DNA from: a virus
Reading direction: 5' to 3' (one strand)
DNA: 33,824 bases
Virus record (IMG/VR): IMGVR_UViG_3300044613_004881
Span: 1 to 33,824 of that record
Under the pieces are notes generated by a model. It did not search any database. It saw only the letters and a program-made list of their open reading frames with translations, and had not been told where the DNA came from. Position numbers and translations under genes: made by a program. Shown piece by piece: positions 8,705 through 33,400 of the stretch (position 1 is the stretch's first letter; every line of letters begins with the position of its first letter).

Positions 8705-9772
8705 TTATTTACGTTTTTTATTGATAATTTTAATCCATTTTTCTCTACGCTCACCGATAGTTGTTTTTTCATATTCTTCGATTTTTTTTATTGATTGCAT
8801 ATATTCATTTGATATTTTCTTAGGTACTTCTAATTTTACGGAAACATACATGTCTCCCAATATTCCATTGGGCAGTTGCAATCCTCTGCCTCGCAATTTG
8901 AATTTGGCGTGACTTTGAGTTCCTTCTGGTATTTTTACCGTAATCATTTCATCTGTAATGGTAGGAACCAAAAGATCACACCCTAAAACCAATTGGCTAT
9001 AACTCACTGGAACATCAATCGACAAATCAATTCCATCACGATCAAAACATTCATGTTCACGAACCAAAACATGAACAATTAAGTCACCAGACTTTCCACC
9101 ACGAAGCGATTCTTCGCCTTGACCACTAATTTTCAAATTCATTCCACTTTCAATGCCACATGGAATTTGAATTTTTATATTCTTTTCTTTGTAGCCAGAG
9201 AGCAATCCCGTACCATTGCAATCAACGCATAGTATTGGATTTATTTTTCCAAGACCATTGCACACAGAGCAATTTGTTCTAAATTCAAAAGGAGCGTTAT
9301 TGACTTTGGTGAAACCTTCTCCATTACAATTTCCACAAGCTTCATTGCTCACCTGACCTTGACCTTTGCAAGTGGTACAAGTATTTTTCATTTTGACAAT
9401 TAAATCTTTATCGCAACCTGTATAGACTTCTTGGAGATCAATTTCCAATCTGATTGTAAGATTTCTTCCACGAAATGTACTGTGCTGAAAAAAATCATTC
9501 ATTACGTCGCCAAAGGAACCATTAAACGAACCGCCTTCAAATCCTCTTCTGCGGAAATGCATTGAGGGTCCAACGCTATCATATTCGGCACGTTTATTAT
9601 CATTAATTAAAATATCATAAGATTCTTGAATTTCACGAAATCTAACATCGGCTTCAGAATCGCCGGGATTTTTATCAGGATGATGCTTCAGGGCACCCTT
9701 ACGGTATGCCCTGACTATATCATCTTTTGTTGCATTTTTAGGAACGCCTAGAACGGCATAAGGGTCTTTCAT
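8705..9772 (-). CDS. dnaJ: DnaJ (Hsp40) co-chaperone, full type I architecture
   Basis: 355 residues. The J domain spans 1-70 with HPD at 31-33. A short Gly/Phe linker (HFRRRGFEGGSFNGSFGD) precedes four zinc-binding CxxCxGxG-type repeats (CTTCKGQG, CGNCNGEG, CSVCNGLG, CVDCNGTG). C-terminal substrate-binding domains contain KISGQGEESLRGG and KLRGRGLQLPNG. DnaJ presents substrates to DnaK and stimulates its ATPase. No DnaK is present in the window, so the phage protein should work with host DnaK, probably for replication complex remodelling or capsid folding. The start overlaps the GroES-like stop by ATGA, making a two-gene chaperone operon. Confidence 0.96.
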   Translation of the reverse strand: MKDPYAVLGVPKNATKDDIVRAYRKGALKHHPDKNPGDSEADVRFREIQESYDILINDNKRAEYDSVGPSMHFRRRGFEGGSFNGSFGDVMNDFFQHSTFRGRNLTIRLEIDLQEVYTGCDKDLIVKMKNTCTTCKGQGQVSNEACGNCNGEGFTKVNNAPFEFRTNCSVCNGLGKINPILCVDCNGTGLLSGYKEKNIKIQIPCGIESGMNLKISGQGEESLRGGKSGDLIVHVLVREHECFDRDGIDLSIDVPVSYSQLVLGCDLLVPTITDEMITVKIPEGTQSHAKFKLRGRGLQLPNGILGDMYVSVKLEVPKKISNEYMQSIKKIEEYEKTTIGERREKWIKIINKKRK

Positions 9773-10425: not shown

Positions 10426-11643
10426 TCAAGTCCAATAGCAAATAAAGAAACACTTACCATCTTTTTCACCAACAATGATTGGATAAAAAAACTTTTTCTT
10501 AATGAATATCTTATCCAAATCCCTAGTGGCATCTTCTAAATTTTCATAATCTTGCAAAATACCATTTTCATTATTGAACATTTTATTTTTATAAGCAATT
10601 GTTGGAACAATTACTCCAAAATGATCAAATATTGGCTTATCGTTTGCTTCTGGAAACTTCTCCAACATATTAATTGTATGCATAACTTCAGGAGAAGCTA
10701 TTTCTTTCAATTCATGAAATGGATAAACCTTTGGATCATAATGATAATTTGCGTCAACAACCAAAGATGAATCAAAATAATAATCAGTAAAGAAAGAACG
10801 ATTTATAGTTACTTGTGCTTCCACACGCATTACATGACCGCCTACCGACAATTGGTAAGAAGGATTAAATGAATATCCTAATGATTTTGCCAAAATTACT
10901 GCGGCACTGGTCATTGTTATACGGTTAAAACCATAATAAGCTTGTTCCATGTTTTCACGAAACAAATCAATACTTTTACATATTTCTGAAGCAAGACTAT
11001 GACAGCCCAACTCCTGATAACGCTTCATTTTTCTCTCTGCTTGCTTTAATTCACGCAAGTAAGCCGCATCATAACGAATGAATTGTTTGAAATTATCAGG
11101 CTGAGAATTCCATGCTTCTTCGCCTTTCTTGTAAAAAGCTTGCAAATCAATGGTTTGCATTTTTTTAGAAAATCTAATAGCTTCACGTTCATCAGAATTC
11201 AATATCATTCTTGCATAAGATTTATTGCAACTGATAGAATCAATTTTACGAACAATATTTTTGTCTAAAGATTCTTTAATAAGAAGCGATCCAAGAAGTG
11301 GAAAAATATGATTTAAATCATTGTTTTTAGCATATTCTGCCATAGCAAGAAACTGAACACATTGTTTTGAAAACTCTTGATCATCGGAAAAACTACCATC
11401 AAAAATTGAAACTAAATCTGGATGTGTCATGTCAAGAATACTGGCAAGATAACCCAATTTTTTACCAAAATGCCCAAATGCAAATTCAAGCAACTCTTGA
11501 CTTGCATCATGAATTATTCTGAGAATAAGGGGAGGATTTGATGGAATAATTTTTTGTTGGTTATAATACAAACGACGATTAAACTCATTCTGAACATCAA
11601 AGACTTTACAATTGAGAATTTCGTTTTTCATGAAATTATCCAT
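10426..11643 (-). CDS. Hypothetical 405-residue protein coupled to IF-3
   Basis: The start MDNFMKNEILNCKVFD at ATG 11643 shares one base with the IF-3 stop (TGATG), so re-initiation coupling is likely; a longer reading to 11667 is less probable. The protein is mixed alpha/beta with a helical, charged middle (RELKQAERKMKRYQELGCHS) and no nucleotide-binding, zinc or membrane motif that I can recognise. The C-terminus (KDGKCFFICYWT) ends abruptly. Its position directly behind IF-3 suggests it is expressed at the same time, possibly early, but gives no function. Confidence 0.75.
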   Translation of the reverse strand: MDNFMKNEILNCKVFDVQNEFNRRLYYNQQKIIPSNPPLILRIIHDASQELLEFAFGHFGKKLGYLASILDMTHPDLVSIFDGSFSDDQEFSKQCVQFLAMAEYAKNNDLNHIFPLLGSLLIKESLDKNIVRKIDSISCNKSYARMILNSDEREAIRFSKKMQTIDLQAFYKKGEEAWNSQPDNFKQFIRYDAAYLRELKQAERKMKRYQELGCHSLASEICKSIDLFRENMEQAYYGFNRITMTSAAVILAKSLGYSFNPSYQLSVGGHVMRVEAQVTINRSFFTDYYFDSSLVVDANYHYDPKVYPFHELKEIASPEVMHTINMLEKFPEANDKPIFDHFGVIVPTIAYKNKMFNNENGILQDYENLEDATRDLDKIFIKKKFFYPIIVGEKDGKCFFICYWT

Positions 11644-12197
11644 CAGGCCTTGGGCGTAAAAAAGCATATAATTCTATTGCCTTCCATAGTTGGTTGCTTT
11701 TCAACAATACCAAACTGCTCTACGAGTTCAACGATCTTTTTCATCACGCTAAAACCTTGCTCTTTATGGCCTAATTCACGATAACCTTTAAATTGAAGAT
11801 TAAATTGAACTTTACATCCTTCTTCTAAAAACTTTTTGGCTTGATTGACTTTTGTTTCTACATCATGATTGGCAATTGCAGGACGCAATCTAATTTCTTT
11901 TATTTGAGCCTGTGATTCTCTTTGTTTTTTAGCAGTTTCTTTTTTCTTTAAGTTTTGTTCGTATTTATAACGACCGTAATCCATTATTCTACAAACTGGT
12001 GGCTTTGCAGTTGAAGCGATTTCAACAAGATCAAGACCTTGATCCATTGCAATTTTTCTTGCCTGTTCTGTTGACATTATGCCAAGCTGTTCATCGTCAT
12101 GGACAACTCTGACTTGTGGTACTCTTATCTGCCAATTAATTCTGTTTTGATCATCACGACTTTCCTTGTTGAACTTATTTCCATTATTCATATTCAT
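11643..12197 (-). CDS. infC: Translation initiation factor IF-3
   Basis: A complete IF-3 of about 184 residues. The N-terminal domain has IRVPQVRVVHDDEQLGIMST, then DLVEIASTAKPPVCRIMDYG, the IF-3 signature. A charged linker (KYEQNLKKKETAKKQRESQ) leads to the C-terminal 30S-binding domain with IKEIRLRPAIANHDVETK, FLEEGCKVQFNLQFKGYREL and a final MEGNRIICFF. IF-3 binds the 30S subunit, prevents 50S joining and checks the start codon and initiator tRNA. The start chosen is ATG 12197, with AGG nine bases upstream, not the unusual start codon used by many bacterial infC genes. A sigma70-like promoter lies immediately upstream. A phage copy could redirect initiation to phage mRNA. Confidence 0.95.
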   Translation of the reverse strand: MNMNNGNKFNKESRDDQNRINWQIRVPQVRVVHDDEQLGIMSTEQARKIAMDQGLDLVEIASTAKPPVCRIMDYGRYKYEQNLKKKETAKKQRESQAQIKEIRLRPAIANHDVETKVNQAKKFLEEGCKVQFNLQFKGYRELGHKEQGFSVMKKIVELVEQFGIVEKQPTMEGNRIICFFTPKA

Positions 12198-12238
12198 CGT
12201 TTGAAACCTGTTAGCCCCCACAAAAATAAACCTATAGA

Positions 12239-12267
12239 AAAATACTACCAATAATAAGCCGTGTCAA
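12239..12267 (-). promoter_or_regulatory. Sigma70-like promoter for infC
   Basis: Minus strand has TTGACA (12267-12262), exactly 17 bases, then TATTTT (12244-12239). The -35 is a full consensus match and the -10 matches four of six. Start of transcription would fall near 12232, giving a leader of about 35 bases. Confidence 0.6.
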
Positions 12268-16408: not shown

Positions 16409-16909
16409 TCACTCCATCAATTCAATTTCTTTGCCTATATCACTTATTAATATTTGTTTTCCATGATCAATCTCGTGCTGAAATACTATTGCCATTAAAT
16501 TATTTTCTTCTCGATTAATATCATCAAGAACCAAAGATGGCGTCCCAGAAACTCGAAGCTGCTTGCCCTTTAACATAATTTTCTCAAATCTCTCAACTTC
16601 AAATCGCCTCATGCTCCCATCTTCATTCTTAATGGACAAGCAACCTTCGATTGACCTTCTTGTAGCACCCAATCCTGAGTATTCGCAATTAACGTAATAT
16701 TCGTAGGATCTGCCCCTTTTTACAATGAACAGATTCCACGGAATGCCGATTTGTACAGCCGAAAGACCAATCCCAATATTTTCATCACAAATCTTTTCCA
16801 TCTTATTGCAAAGACGAAAAATATTCATGAGATTATCAATAGGCATGTTTTCTGCCTTTGGAATCTGACTTTCAGCAACAATCTTCAGCGGTTCATTAAT
16901 ATTAATCAT
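16409..16909 (-). CDS. def: Peptide deformylase
   Basis: 166 residues with the three deformylase motifs: GIGLSAVQ (46-53; Ser where most have Ala), EGCLS (88-92, metal Cys) and QHEIDH (144-149, metal His pair with catalytic Glu). The enzyme removes the formyl group from the first Met of new proteins at the ribosome exit. Phage deformylases, known from marine phages, act on nascent chains during infection. It overlaps the ribbon-helix-helix gene by one base (TAATG), which itself overlaps bS21, making a three-gene translation operon. The C-terminal helix after HEIDH is short, as in other phage forms. Confidence 0.95.
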   Translation of the reverse strand: MININEPLKIVAESQIPKAENMPIDNLMNIFRLCNKMEKICDENIGIGLSAVQIGIPWNLFIVKRGRSYEYYVNCEYSGLGATRRSIEGCLSIKNEDGSMRRFEVERFEKIMLKGKQLRVSGTPSLVLDDINREENNLMAIVFQHEIDHGKQILISDIGKEIELME

Positions 16910-22337: not shown

Positions 22338-22803
22338 TGCCAATCTCCGATTCAACAATTTTAGACTTAATCGAAACAACCTGATTTGTTTTATCTAAAA
22401 AAGTGTCTAAATTTGCAATACTAATTATCGTCCAATGAACATCATTCTCAGGAACATATTTCTTTTCAGCATAATAAAAAATTTCCATTTTATATTTGTA
22501 AGTCTTAGCCTCAACTTCTTCTTTAGTCATACCATTAGACAAATCTTCAACAATTTCTTTGCAAATCCGAATGGCATCCGCCTCTGTTGCACAACCCAAC
22601 TTCCTCATAACTTGAATCGCCGCCAAAACCTTATTGTCATATTGCGATAACAAATAAATAATATCACGCTTCATCTGACCATCTATAAATTCTGCAATAG
22701 CACTATATCTCGCCATAATGTCGCCACGACTAGGACGACTGGTTCGACAATCTCTAAAATATTCAGAAAAATTATTTTCATCGATAATTAATTCATCAGT
22801 CAT
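22294..22803 (-). CDS. Hypothetical protein co-expressed with polymerase
   Basis: 169 residues from ATG 22803 (MTDELIIDENNFSEYF), overlapping the polymerase stop by eight bases. A helical body contains SRPSRGDIMARYSAIAEFID, then VMRKLGCATEADAIRICKEI. This looks like a structured globular protein, with a charged C-terminal tail. No motif recognised; coupling to dnaE suggests a replication or morphogenesis role that cannot be specified. Confidence 0.7.
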   Translation of the reverse strand: MTDELIIDENNFSEYFRDCRTSRPSRGDIMARYSAIAEFIDGQMKRDIIYLLSQYDNKVLAAIQVMRKLGCATEADAIRICKEIVEDLSNGMTKEEVEAKTYKYKMEIFYYAEKKYVPENDVHWTIISIANLDTFLDKTNQVVSIKSKIVESEIGSENQESEVQSANFA

Positions 22804-25552
22804 TTTTATTTTCCACATTCAAATTATTAAATAAGCCTAAAACTTCCTCGTCTGTCATAAACTTTTCTTCTTCGTTTTTCCCAAATCGCATGATAAAAAC
22901 ACGAGGATCATCGTCTTTGTCAATATATTTCTTATGTCCCCTAAATTTACCATTTTGATTGGACTCTAACAAAAAAGTATTAAATCCACCAGATGGAGGC
23001 TGTAACCTAACTCTAAGTAAGTTACCCTTCAAAAATTCTTTAGACCAACGACTCCAATCATCTGGCCATATATTGATTTTATTCTCCTGACCCACAACAT
23101 CTTCTACTATAACTTGCGTATAATTCGATCCCTTTTTACTAACTTTCTCATCAACTCTTTTTACAATAATCTCCACTGGAAAAGCATATCCGTCAAGATC
23201 ATTCTTCAATACATCAAAAGTTAAATTTCCTCTGTAATCAGGACTTTTCTCCAACTCATGAATCCATGTAAAACCATAATACTCCTGCTCACAAGCAATC
23301 GGATTCTTAAACAATAAAGCCAAATCTTTAGGAACATCATATTTATCAGAATCAAAATCAATCAATCGTGGCATCTGCTTAAACTCAGCCTCTGAAAATC
23401 TCGCTATCGTCCTCTGACGCTTAATCCATAACTTCTTCAATTCCTTCCAACGATTCCAAGGACGCTTGACAGCAATCTTTTTATAATAACGCATAACCTC
23501 CCGCTCAATAAACACATCCGTGCCTTCAACAAGAACAGAAGCTATTTCAATTCGACCAAAACCCTCTCCCTCACTACATTCATATTCCTTCAAAACTTCA
23601 ATTTCCTCTTCCTTATCATATTTTTCCTGATACTCAATACCATCAAAAGGAGCATCACCTACTAAATCAGAAAGATTGAATTTTACATCAGGAATAAGCT
23701 CCCTTAACTCATCCTCATACCGAATAATACTCGCATTAAACCTTTTTCTTTTATCTTCATTTTTTCTAACACATTCCTTGAAATACTCCGCAAACTTCCA
23801 CAACGTAATCGGATCACGATCCCTAAAACACCTCAAACCTAATATCGGCTTCAATATAGACGCATCTGTACCACATCGATAAAGAAAATCCTCAAAACTA
23901 CGATACGGCTGACCAGCCACTATCTTCTGAGCAGGACCCTCTCCTATCCCCTTCACATTGCTAAAACCAAAATAAATTAAATTATCCTTAAGCTCAAAAT
24001 TAATCCCAGATTTGTTAATGTCAAGACGATGCATCTCAACATCATGTATCTTAGACTCCATCTTGATGTCTTTTATCTTCTCCGCCAAAGTCTCACATGA
24101 TAACATGCTAACATAAAATTCATGAGGGTAATGAACCTTCAAATATAAAAGATACATGCTGATGTAAGTATAAGCCACAGCATGACTTAAGTTGAATCCA
24201 TACTCACTAAAAGTTTCAATCTGAGACCAAATTTGTATTAATTCTTCTTCTGTGGTTTGGAGATTTTTCTGACCATTTAATATAAATTGTTCTTTATATT
24301 TTATAAATGAATCCAATTTCTTCTTTGATATGGCTTTTCTTACAGCTTCACAATCCTTCAAGGGAATTTCACCAACAACATGCAGCATTCGCATAATTTG
24401 TTCTTGATAAACCATAACTCCATATGTCTTTTCAAGAATTGGATCAATTAAAGGATGAAGACTATATTTTTCACGACCCTTCTTCCTTTCGACATATCGT
24501 TTAGTCATCCCTGACGCTAAACAACCGGGCCTGAAAAGCGCAGAATATGCCACTAAATCTTCAAATCGATCAACTCCTCCAGCCCTAACCAATGCCCTCA
24601 TTCCCTCAGAATCAAATTGGAATATACACTTCAAATCACCACGATTAGCCATTGCAATTGAATCAGGATCATTCCTCCAACAATCAACATCCGACCAATC
24701 TGGCTCTCCAGATTTGGCACAAATTGAAGTAACACCATGATTAATTCTAACCATTTCACAACAACGAGCAATTTGCAAAAGATTACTGATTACAAGTAAA
24801 TCAAACTTAACAAGACCAACAGGCTGCAAATCCTGACCATGCAATCCCTCCACCCATGCACTCGCATGAGGGTTGTCTTTTCTTTTAACCAAAGGAACAA
24901 GATCATGAAGTGGAATTCTTGAAACAATCAAGCCACCAGCATGTACTCCCATACCACGATTGCGATTAATTAATTTTTTTGTCGCCTGAGCAACTAAGGG
25001 ATATTTTTCAACATATGCCTTAAATTCAGGGTCAAGCCTCAAAGCCGTATCCCATGTAATAGGCTTGCCTTCATCGTCCTTAGCATCAAGATTCTTAGTG
25101 ATTGCCATGACCTCTTCACGACTCTCACCGTGAACACGAGCCATATCAATCAATGCTGATTTAATTCCAAATGTCGTATAGTTACCAATGTTACAAACAT
25201 AATCTTCGCCAAATGTTTTCGGTGCCCACTCATTCTTCAAATAATCACGAACCATCGGAATGTAATCAATGTCCACATCAGGCAAGTCACCCGTGAATAC
25301 ATTCACAGGATCTGTATCAATGTCAAAGTCTGGCACTATTTTCAAAAGCCAACAAACTAAAAGATTATTCTGATTCTTTGGATACTTTATTTTTCTGTCA
25401 ACTAGATCAAGGAAATATTTAATTTTATCCTTAGCAATAATTTCTTCAGATTCCCACTTCAAACGCTTAATGTAACGTAAGTCTTTTTGCAAACCCTTAG
25501 ATTGCAAAGAAAATTCTAAATATTTAAGAAATCGCTCTTTTTCTTTGCTCAT
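22796..25552 (-). CDS. dnaE: DNA polymerase III alpha, C-terminal catalytic part
   Basis: 918 residues; the ATG at 25552 has GAGGG six bases upstream. Catalytic acidic residues are PDVDID (91-96) and GLVKFD (D251). Further DnaE blocks are CIFQFDSEGMRAL (309-321), LVAYSALFRPGCLASGM (333-349), TYGVMVYQEQIMRML (376-390), AISKKKLDS (407-415) and YGFNLSHAVAYT (451-462). A helix-hairpin-helix (NVKGIGEGPAQKI, 532-544) and a C-terminal OB fold (about 820-890) follow. PHP and the GPGRGS element are absent and sit in a separate gene at 32001-33400. The first 90 residues contain a diverged copy of the palm segment also present in that gene. It should assemble with the N-terminal piece into phage replicase. 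Confidence 0.95.
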   Translation of the reverse strand: MSKEKERFLKYLEFSLQSKGLQKDLRYIKRLKWESEEIIAKDKIKYFLDLVDRKIKYPKNQNNLLVCWLLKIVPDFDIDTDPVNVFTGDLPDVDIDYIPMVRDYLKNEWAPKTFGEDYVCNIGNYTTFGIKSALIDMARVHGESREEVMAITKNLDAKDDEGKPITWDTALRLDPEFKAYVEKYPLVAQATKKLINRNRGMGVHAGGLIVSRIPLHDLVPLVKRKDNPHASAWVEGLHGQDLQPVGLVKFDLLVISNLLQIARCCEMVRINHGVTSICAKSGEPDWSDVDCWRNDPDSIAMANRGDLKCIFQFDSEGMRALVRAGGVDRFEDLVAYSALFRPGCLASGMTKRYVERKKGREKYSLHPLIDPILEKTYGVMVYQEQIMRMLHVVGEIPLKDCEAVRKAISKKKLDSFIKYKEQFILNGQKNLQTTEEELIQIWSQIETFSEYGFNLSHAVAYTYISMYLLYLKVHYPHEFYVSMLSCETLAEKIKDIKMESKIHDVEMHRLDINKSGINFELKDNLIYFGFSNVKGIGEGPAQKIVAGQPYRSFEDFLYRCGTDASILKPILGLRCFRDRDPITLWKFAEYFKECVRKNEDKRKRFNASIIRYEDELRELIPDVKFNLSDLVGDAPFDGIEYQEKYDKEEEIEVLKEYECSEGEGFGRIEIASVLVEGTDVFIEREVMRYYKKIAVKRPWNRWKELKKLWIKRQRTIARFSEAEFKQMPRLIDFDSDKYDVPKDLALLFKNPIACEQEYYGFTWIHELEKSPDYRGNLTFDVLKNDLDGYAFPVEIIVKRVDEKVSKKGSNYTQVIVEDVVGQENKINIWPDDWSRWSKEFLKGNLLRVRLQPPSGGFNTFLLESNQNGKFRGHKKYIDKDDDPRVFIMRFGKNEEEKFMTDEEVLGLFNNLNVENKND

Positions 25553-27463: not shown

Positions 27464-28027
27464 TTATTTAACAATTTCCAAGATGGCTGGCTTCATTACA
27501 TCGTAATCCATGAAATATGCTATCGCAGCATAACCGTGTATCCCTAAATTACATGCGGCTTGCATCCGATGGTTTCCATCCCACAAAACAACACCTTTTG
27601 GAACAACCATGACCAACGGTAAATTAGGATCATAATCTCTCTTCTTGAATTCTTCCTCGTAATAAATTGGATTTGGTTTTGTCAAAGAAAATGACCGTAA
27701 ACTCATCAACTTGCATGGGTCTACCTTAGCCAAAATAATATCTGATTTGTCACGAATGAACATTTTTGTCGCCCATTCTTCGTCAGCGTATCCTTCCTCT
27801 TTCATCGCCTTTTCATAATAATAATCATACAAGCCCATATTTTTCAAGATTTTATAGGCTTCAGGCCAATCAAAACGCCTGAGAAACTGCGAAGTTTTTT
27901 TAATGGATTCTTTCCAACCTTTGAAAGCTTGCATAGAATCTTGACCCAAAATCCAACCCTCATTCATAATAAAGAATGATTCATCCAACAGCCCAGCTAA
28001 CCTTAATATGTCGCTTTTTTTATTCAT
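27464..28027 (-). CDS. ParB/Srx-like domain protein
   Basis: 187 residues from ATG 28027, with GGA ten bases upstream; the TTG reading to 28042 is less likely. VVLWDGNHRMQAACNLGI, near the C-terminus, is the DGNHR signature of the ParB/sulfiredoxin-like fold, which binds or cleaves nucleotides or DNA in various families. The N-terminus MNKKSDILRLAGLLDESFF shares the LAG-x-x-x-ES pattern with the 30292 gene. It lies 24 bases after the tmRNA 3' end on the same strand and is probably transcribed with it. Activity unknown. Confidence 0.65.
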   Translation of the reverse strand: MNKKSDILRLAGLLDESFFIMNEGWILGQDSMQAFKGWKESIKKTSQFLRRFDWPEAYKILKNMGLYDYYYEKAMKEEGYADEEWATKMFIRDKSDIILAKVDPCKLMSLRSFSLTKPNPIYYEEEFKKRDYDPNLPLVMVVPKGVVLWDGNHRMQAACNLGIHGYAAIAYFMDYDVMKPAILEIVK

Positions 28028-28051
28028 ATTGAAATTTTCCAAAATGGCAAG

Positions 28052-28402
28052 TGGAGCCGAGCGGACCTGCCCCGCTGTCTTCGCATAACTACCTGTGAGC
28101 CTCTACATGTTTATCTTATTGTTTAATGTCATCTGAAAAGGCACAACAAATAAAACCTTTTTCAGCACTATCAACTTTATCTCGTCATCTGCCCATTGAA
28201 CTGCATATGACCAGCCAGATTTTACATCAAACTTTCGGTCGCTACTAGCATCGCTACCTGAGTCTGTGGTTGCACTTATGCAGCCATAGCGTAAACAGTT
28301 TCGCCAGTTAAGGCTTTGGTTAGATTTTTAAGAGGCCTTCTAACCAACCTCTACATGCCACTCACAAGCCGTCCATCCGAATCGAATTCTAAATACGGCC
28401 CC
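28052..28402 (-). ncRNA. ssrA: tmRNA (ssrA)
   Basis: The 5' GGGGCCG (from 28402) pairs with 3' CGGCTCC (28059-28053), with discriminator A at 28052 and CCA not encoded. The T-arm is AGCGG/CCGCT, but its loop GGCAGGT departs from the usual TTCRANY. An H-type pseudoknot is clear: AGAGG/CCTCT interleaved with TTGGTTAG/CTAACCAA (28352-28316). Ten bases later GGC (28305) starts the tag frame GETVYAMAA, stop TAA at 28276. E. coli has ANDENYALAA. AATTCGAT and GGCATGTAGAGG match conserved 5' regions and ACATGTAGAGG a 3' one. It frees stalled ribosomes and tags the peptide for proteolysis. It fills the only gene-poor stretch above 300 bases. Confidence 0.93.
28276..28305 (-). other. tmRNA tag reading frame GETVYAMAA
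   Basis: GGC to TAA inside tmRNA. The frame extends upstream as A-L-T, but GGC lies at the usual distance after the pseudoknot, and TTAACT resembles the upstream element of resume codons. The YAMAA end fits recognition by ClpXP-type proteases (YALAA in E. coli). Confidence 0.8.
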
Positions 28403-32000: not shown

Positions 32001-33400
32001 TTACAACAACAATTCCTCTGGAAGTAAAGGATCAATATTCTTAAACTCTAACTGCAAACTTCTTCCTCCACGAGCCTCACTCATGAAACGACTGAAGAGC
32101 AATCCTTCACGCACAGGATCGACACTAGTGATGCCTAGGCAGTAACAAATAAGGGAACCACAACAACTACCACGACCCGGACCAACAGCCTGTGAACCAT
32201 CACCAAATCCAAGCAAATCACGACAGACTCTACGAGCCTCATCTGTCATCATCTTTTGAATCAAAAAGTAACTGGTAAATCCCTTCCTGATGATAAGACT
32301 GTATTCTTCCTTGACCCTATCAAGATATTCCCTTGTCTTTGGCAAATTTCTTGTTTGGAAACCAATCATGATTTCTTCCCGCAACTTTTCATCACCATCA
32401 GGAATAAATGGTAACTTCAAACTACGATCAAGCTGAACTCCCTTTGCCTTTTTGCAAATATCAACAGTTGTCCTCTTGGCCTCACAAAAAATTTCATAAG
32501 GAATTGAATCTTGATAATCACTCAACCACTTCTCATTCAATTCCTCTTCACTCTTCATCCAAAGATTCGCATCCTGCAACTCAAAGAAATCTTGATTGGA
32601 ATCTTCCTTCATTGCCTTTTCAATCTCAGCAATAGTACGATTAGTCTGCATCATCAACATCAGTCTCTGATATTGACTATCTTCTTTGTTGCAATAATGG
32701 CAATCGTTTGAAAGTATGATCTTCAGACCATACTTTTCCTTTGCTTTTACAATAAATTCGTCATATGGCTTTTGCTTTTTGAAATCCAAAAGCATTATTT
32801 CGAGATAGAAATGTTCTTTGCCGAACATTTCAACATAACGCTCGACCATGGCGAATCCAGCTTCTTCTCCACCTTTATCAAATGCTCTTCCAATCTCGCT
32901 GGCATAACAACAACTTGTGAAAATAATTCCTTCTTTATATTTCAGTAACTGTTCGTAGTTGACTCTTGGGCGACGATAAAATCCTTTTGTCCAGCCCCAA
33001 CTAGAAAGACGAACAAGATTCTTATATCCTTCGTTGCTATAGGCAATAGCAAGCAAATGACTGCTAGACTTAAATTCACTTTGCTCTTCTTCTGTTAAAT
33101 TTGAATATATTTTCTTACCTTCGTCTTGCTCTGTCATCTCAGGCTGAAGACGATTCATATAAAGTTCAACTGCAAATATGGGGCTAAGAGTGTCTTTGCC
33201 ATACTTGTCATTAATTTTTTCACATCCACGAATTTGACGTGGAATTGCTCCCATCATACCGTGATCGCTAATTGTTAAAAACTTTTGATTGATCTGAGGA
33301 GCACGAACACAATACTCTTCTACAGATCCAAAACCATCTAATACGGAAAAATCGGAGTAAACTAGTGCAAGTGAAGATGTTCAAAACCGACTATCTCCAC
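32001..33400 (-). CDS. dnaE: DNA polymerase III alpha, N-terminal PHP/palm part, with frame interruption
   Basis: The zero frame starts at GTG 33400, ten bases after GGAGG, and reads MEIVGFEHLHLH, then TAG (33364-33362). The rest continues in another frame as SDFSVLDGFGSVEEYC from 33356, through SDHG, IFAVELYM, ILSNDCHY and GPGRGSCCGSL, ending at 32001. HLHLH plus SDFSVLDG is the exact PHP start of DnaE (HLHVHSEYSLLDG), so eight bases interrupt one domain. The downstream frame has no ATG, GTG or TTG before MMGAIP (33257), which would lack the PHP core. It stops just before the catalytic PDxDID, found in the 22796-25552 gene. Functional only with bypass, recoding or error; otherwise a pseudogene. 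Confidence 0.88.

Follow-up and report, generated by a model that had tools for sequence, protein, structure and literature searches.

Phages known to carry a standard one-piece tmRNA include Bxz1 and related mycobacteriophages, Bacillus phage G and huge phages. Few RNA tertiary contacts are as conserved as the elbow of tRNA-like molecules. What, then, should be made of a phage tmRNA whose T-loop reads GGCAGGU and not the usual TTCRANY? The locus lies in a 33.8-kb IMG/VR virus record that was analyzed along its whole length (33,824 nt) and that we refer to as the window. An earlier note, made from the sequence of the window alone, had proposed a phage-encoded tmRNA here and had described its T-loop as odd.

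The window encodes a full-length one-piece tmRNA

An Rfam search of the entire 33.8-kb window returned RF00023 (tmRNA) as the single above-threshold match. The match lies on the minus strand at 28402-28049, reaches 98.5 bits (E 1.6e-37), with the gathering cut-off at 47, and covers model positions 1-374 of 374. This is the covariance-model search that had been suggested as a check, and the full-length match, along with the covariation described below, bears out a tmRNA encoded by the phage. A laxer search of the window gave one weak sub-threshold match elsewhere and nothing more. From the RF00023 match and covariation in ten homologs we place the one-piece tmRNA gene (ssrA) at 28052-28402 on the minus strand, and the coordinates given in the earlier note correspond exactly to G1 through discriminator A73.

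The acceptor stem pairs its 5' strand, GGGGCCG (28396-28402, minus strand), with its 3' strand, CGGCUCC (28053-28059, minus strand), through all seven expected pairs, three of which have changed on both sides by the covariation count. The stem includes G3-U70, a key determinant of alanine identity for AlaRS, which is invariant in 10/10 phage homologs. The 3' end reads CGGCUCC-A-CUU; as had been noticed, CCA is not encoded, and CTT follows the discriminator A. Encoded CCA is likewise absent from relatives with canonical loops (L158, L159, L162). The D-loop, UAUUUAGAAUUCGA (28382-28395, minus strand), has AG replacing the canonical GG, as judged from alignment with canonical-loop relatives and from the D/T-loop contingency presented below. 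The T-arm, AGCGG-GGCAGGU-CCGCU (28060-28076, minus strand), has all five stem pairs, and its loop (28065-28071, minus strand), read directly from the sequence, does depart from TTCRANY.

Pseudoknot 1 occupies 28318-28351 (minus strand) and consists of the interleaved helices GAGG/CCUC and GGUUAGA/UCUAACC, which are 97.5-100% paired across the ten phage homologs. The earlier description of a 7-bp acceptor stem and interleaved pseudoknot stems thus holds, the latter for both helices of pseudoknot 1. The pseudoknot 2-4 region aligns to RF00023 with several non-standard pairs, and its helices fall outside the separate pair count. The tag frame at 28305-28276 (minus strand), GGC GAA ACU GUU UAC GCU AUG GCU GCA UAA, encodes GETVYAMAA followed by a stop, as originally read. 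Homologous tags include GETVYALAA (L165, L537), GESVLAMAA (L166) and DETVHALAA (L158), and the frame, the AA terminus and the stop are kept at conserved length in the homologs. The window RNA therefore shares with the standard one-piece tmRNA (RF00023) its gene order, G3-U70 acceptor, pseudoknot 1, tag ending in AA-stop and full-length match, and differs from it in having GGCRG with AG where the standard has UUCRA with GG, and in being missed by ARAGORN.

Phage homologs covary in the counted helices of the tmRNA fold

We aligned ten homologous phage tmRNAs and counted 40 pairs in the acceptor, T-stem, helix 2, pseudoknot 1 and the tag-stop helix. Paired cells amounted to 93.2% compared with 77.8% in shuffled alignments, 23 of the 40 pairs had changed on both sides compared with 12.4 in shuffles, and the covariation score was 0.512 compared with 0.193. 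None of 500 shuffles reached the observed values, and when the partners were shifted by a single column, pairing fell to 43%. The acceptor, the second helix of pseudoknot 1 and the T-stem were paired in 100% of cells, with changes on both sides in 3/7, 7/7 and 3/5 of their pairs, respectively. Because covariation in ten homologs exceeded that of every shuffle, chance pairing is excluded, and these comparisons indicate that the window RNA is selected for the tmRNA fold, T-arm included. A hidden intron or intron scar in the T-arm is ruled out, since both stems are unbroken and covarying; the T-arm is contiguous, and the group I intron model (RF00028) has no match anywhere in the window.

The GGCRG T-loop belongs to a widespread class

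The earlier note had treated the T-loop as a peculiarity of this RNA. That part did not survive comparison, as the same loop class with an AG D-loop appears in sister phages, in the Rfam alpha_tmRNA consensus, and in Saccharibacteria and other bacteria. Phage relatives with GGC[A/G]G loops are L163/L164 (GGCGGGT), L165 (GGCAGAA), L166 (GGCGGTA), L537 (GGCAGGT) and L533 (GGCGGTT), while TTCRA is found in L158, L159, L162 and LR756511, and L167 retains TT before an intron. A pattern combining the GGCRG T-arm with the acceptor strand CGGCTCC matched more than 119 viral contigs. Most of these look like permuted tmRNAs of the alphaproteobacterial type, with the 5' acceptor and D-loop downstream, and permuted or alpha models match 10 of 12 scanned loci from contigs with the GGCRG T-arm. 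The occurrence of GGCRG in other viral contigs and in bacteria rules out a loop unique to the window phage.

The alphaproteobacterial permuted tmRNAs (RF01849, RF04321) resemble the window RNA in T-loop class (consensus GGCgGUA), in their AG D-loop and often in their acceptor, GGGGCCG/CGGCUCC; the Rfam alpha_tmRNA consensus reads GGGGGCgGUACCC, with D-loop AAAuAGGAUCGAC. They differ in that the window RNA is unpermuted, its 5' acceptor lying ~350 nt upstream of its 3' end, and neither model has a match in the window. One-piece GGCRG tmRNAs also occur in bacterial genomes. Among the matches listed, these were mostly Candidatus Saccharibacteria, along with some Elusimicrobiota, Chloroflexota (OLB15 type), Myxococcota and other Patescibacteria. 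The Saccharibacterial, Elusimicrobiota, Chloroflexota and Myxococcota tmRNAs have the GGCRG T-loop and mostly a D-loop without GG, as the window RNA does, and differ from it in their tags, their mRNA-like domains and, mostly, their acceptors (GGGGCTG or GGGGGTG). Searching the literature for Saccharibacterial tmRNA returned nothing evidently relevant. The change from UU to GG at T-loop positions 54-55 was noted earlier in the mitochondrial tmRNA of Reclinomonas americana, with a one-base version in Caulobacter (PMC1168896). The Reclinomonas RNA, unlike ours, is a two-piece, mitochondrial molecule of 189 nt (PMC1168896).

TTCRANY is therefore usual in tmRNA and not required, as alphaproteobacterial and Saccharibacterial tmRNAs also lack it. 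Because GGCRG is common to the phage relatives, the alpha_tmRNA consensus and several bacterial phyla, we conclude from sequence that the GGCRG T-loop with an AG D-loop is an alternative elbow class and not a defect, and its recurrence in one-piece tmRNAs of Saccharibacteria genomes argues that this elbow is used in cells. Within 60 Pseudomonadota genomes, GGCRG was found in 11, TTCRA in 40, TGCGA in one and both types in none. The TGCGA case (L727, genome G100) has the T-loop TGCGATT, which may be intermediate between the two main types.

The D-loop and T-loop switch together

Among non-redundant one-piece tmRNAs, a D-loop GG was present in 51/53 with TTCRA compared with 12/89 with GGCRG. By a simple rule taking the first motif, YGG occurs in none of the GGCRG D-loops and AG in nearly all; under this rule permuted forms read AGG, leaving the register ambiguous, and 12 canonical loops also scored AG (they read AGG). 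This association is not built in, because the patterns used for collection excluded the D-loop.

The same contingency is seen between close phage relatives, where the D-loop has GG in every canonical-loop member and AG in every GGCRG member. Within the clade defined by the phage DnaE, the canonical loops belong to the outer relatives, and the alternative pair to the group that includes the window: L158 and L162 combine the D-loop CUGGUAUCGA or CCGGUAUCGA with a UUCRA T-loop, L166 combines CUAGUUUCGA with GGCGG, and the window differs likewise. In a DnaE tree, the alternative elbow was not recovered as one clade, as the canonical pair L123/L124 branches, weakly supported, between the two groups with that elbow; a single origin of the alternative elbow within the DnaE clade was not rejected (p-AU 0.46).

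A second, unrelated phage lineage, in which no DnaE match was found, shows the same exchange. Its tmRNAs lie at 979-1336 in L305, 1642-1996 in L600 and 3453-3808 in L652, with the tags GTNQLALAA and GETQLALAA. L305 has the D-loop AAAUAGAAU with the T-loop GGCAGAA and L652 the D-loop UAACGGAUU with UUCGACU, in tmRNAs that are 85.5% identical over 311 nt. Against L600 (79% identity over 358 nt), L305 sets GGCAG with AAATAGAAT against TTCGA with TAAAGGTAT, and flanking genes common to these two are 55-77% identical at the protein level. Because both the DnaE clade and this lineage show it, the sequences indicate that the elbow has switched at least two times in phages. Since both loops switch jointly between tmRNAs that are ~85% identical elsewhere, the D-loop and T-loop appear to behave as a coupled elbow.

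Each of these two lineages, with both loops switched and the rest of the tmRNA kept, amounts to a natural swap experiment that bears on the question of which contacts in the elbow are needed by SmpB, EF-Tu and the CCA enzyme. Phage tmRNAs as such are already known, including the two-piece alphaproteobacterial type, which is carried by phage Melnitz (PMC9004378). In the literature searched, with partial coverage, we found no description of a one-piece phage tmRNA with a GGCRG elbow or of a coupled elbow switch between phage relatives.

A probable working tmRNA with an elbow possibly suited to its host

We consider it probable that the window RNA is a working one-piece phage tmRNA, whose alternative elbow would be of a type suited to the host. 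Following RNase P and 3' processing, CCA would be added, presumably by a host enzyme. The host AlaRS would then charge the RNA, in keeping with the charging of tmRNA through G3-U70 (PMC3968760), and host SmpB and EF-Tu would deliver it to stalled ribosomes. Addition of the tag A-GETVYAMAA would lead to degradation of truncated proteins and free ribosomes during infection. Borrowing of host enzymes is suggested by the absence of SmpB from the 24 phage records searched, most of them fragments; within that set, a phage-encoded SmpB as a dedicated partner is ruled out. SmpB binds the tmRNA elbow and holds the D-loop, and its function needs the D/T-loop interaction (PMC3968760). The joint change of the two loops could thus reflect both their mutual contact and their contact with SmpB. 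The T-loop of tmRNA is modified to m5U by TrmA and to pseudouridine, probably by TruB (PMC3968760); m5U54 and Psi55 presumably cannot be placed on the window T-loop, since U54 and U55 are absent. The loop might also alter binding of SmpB, EF-Tu or the CCA enzyme, along the lines of the earlier note.

The phage would keep the elbow that suits its host, and the simplest host would be a bacterium with a GGCRG tmRNA of its own, such as an alphaproteobacterium. A match between the phage elbow and the host's own tmRNA is plausible, and the apparent uniformity of elbow type within bacterial clades makes it attractive. A stronger proposal, which we offer tentatively, is that the two elbows are discrete and incompatible and are switched as an adaptation to host SmpB or other partners. 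In that case the type of elbow would be a marker of the host group and a record of switches between hosts, and new contacts such as A18-G55 and G54-G58 might take the place of G18-Psi55 and U54-A58 in the GGCRG elbow. We compared SmpB from GGCRG genomes (26 sequences), from GGCRG Pseudomonadota (6) and from others (20); a few positions differ within Pseudomonadota, and none marks elbow type consistently across all groups. The phage IF3 gave no pointer to the host, its best bacterial matches (40-47% identity) being a mixture of GGCRG and TTCRA genomes.

The lack of a convergent SmpB residue favors a different reading, in which the elbow has drifted, neutrally or with compensation, between two equally good loop pairs that SmpB, EF-Tu and ribosomes tolerate, and the host is not indicated. 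The scatter of the alternative elbow over many phyla and the TGCGATT loop of one Pseudomonadota genome point the same way. We nonetheless regard drift as unlikely, as the loops change jointly with intermediates nearly absent, and uniformity within large clades (the alphaproteobacterial and Saccharibacterial tmRNAs) suggests constraint by a partner. That the T-loop deviates from TTCRANY and that ARAGORN rejects the RNA could also be taken to signify a decaying tmRNA whose T-loop has lost its function. Conservation of the GGCRG loop in relatives and bacteria and compensatory changes in both flanking stems make this barely credible, and the covariation appears largely to refute it.

Two further readings give the RNA or its loop another role. 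The phage tRNA-like domain might be a decoy that titrates host SmpB and so inhibits trans-translation in the host, a role proposed for the tmRNA of mycobacteriophage DS6A, which consists of that domain only (PMC4131195). With no phage SmpB found, the RNA would indeed compete with host tmRNA for SmpB, but the homologs retain the tag frame with its terminal AA and stop, all of which DS6A lacks, and we find a decoy highly improbable. The switch could instead protect against mobile elements aimed at the canonical T-loop, such as group I introns or integrases that target the tmRNA 3' end. All known tmRNA group I introns lie in the T-loop (PMC11915505), and a close canonical relative (L167/L123) has an RF00028 match of 60.8 bits from its T-loop (L167, 1292-1519). 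This is a single intron case among the relatives, however, and protection would leave unexplained both the D-loop change and the occurrence of the alternative elbow across entire bacterial phyla, which makes it very unlikely.

Consequences for tmRNA annotation

ARAGORN reported no tmRNA in the window, and this is explained by its missing the GGCRG loop class. It calls the canonical phage tmRNAs L158-L162, L600, L652 and LR756511, and it called 0/18 one-piece GGCRG tmRNAs, namely the window, L163/L164, L165, L166, L305, L399, L533, L537, L186, L427, L438, L448, L466, L418, L441, L443, L460 and L505. Rfam detects the scanned members of this set; L537 is absent from the Rfam listing. The tmRNAs of a huge-phage survey were called by ARAGORN (PMC7162821). 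From its failure on all 18, one-piece GGCRG tmRNAs, both phage and Saccharibacterial, are probably under-counted in surveys based on this program.

The carrier phage and its relatives

The carrier is a large uncultured phage whose genes in the window encode PHP/DnaE polymerase halves, PhoH, IF3, peptide deformylase, DnaJ, dUTPase and a glycosyltransferase. Three of these, IF3 (11643-12251), peptide deformylase (16409-16909) and DnaJ (8705-9772), form a set for translation and protein quality alongside the tmRNA. Close relatives of the DnaE C-terminal half number eleven (46-100% identity) and lie on contigs no longer than 225 kb. The 595-kb huge phage LR756511 has another relative, at 44% identity, and there the tmRNA lies ~3 kb from dnaE. 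A tmRNA is present in 9/11 records with a DnaE relative at 46% identity or more; the two without are L125, a 22.6-kb fragment, and L127, in a 189-kb record. The tmRNA region had no DNA match in a collection of named phages, nor the window tmRNA in a plasmid collection. The next gene (27464-28042, minus strand) encodes 192 aa with no Pfam or PHROG match, and its open frame starts ~10 nt past the tmRNA, making co-transcription of the two possible.

The window DnaE is split into two genes (22796-25552 and 32001-33257) with the break inside the NTPase domain, such that PF07733 positions 2-98 and 100-259 fall on separate halves; the two genes are separated by the tmRNA and by several further genes. 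In LR756511, the open reading frame extends ~350 residues upstream of the DnaE match and looks unsplit. Other DnaE C-terminal halves are interrupted: that of the L533 record (G045:17059-21263) by an insert of ~1.6 kb near residue 455, and those of L128/L132 by a break in the reading frame that falls between residues 372 and 456. The interruptions in G045 and L128/L132 may be an intron, an intein or an assembly error. On a 41-kb viral contig, ARAGORN called a tRNA with a CUA anticodon (L186, 712-785; labeled Pyl) ~1 kb from a one-piece GGCRG tmRNA (GGCAGAT), and this tRNA is a possible amber suppressor.
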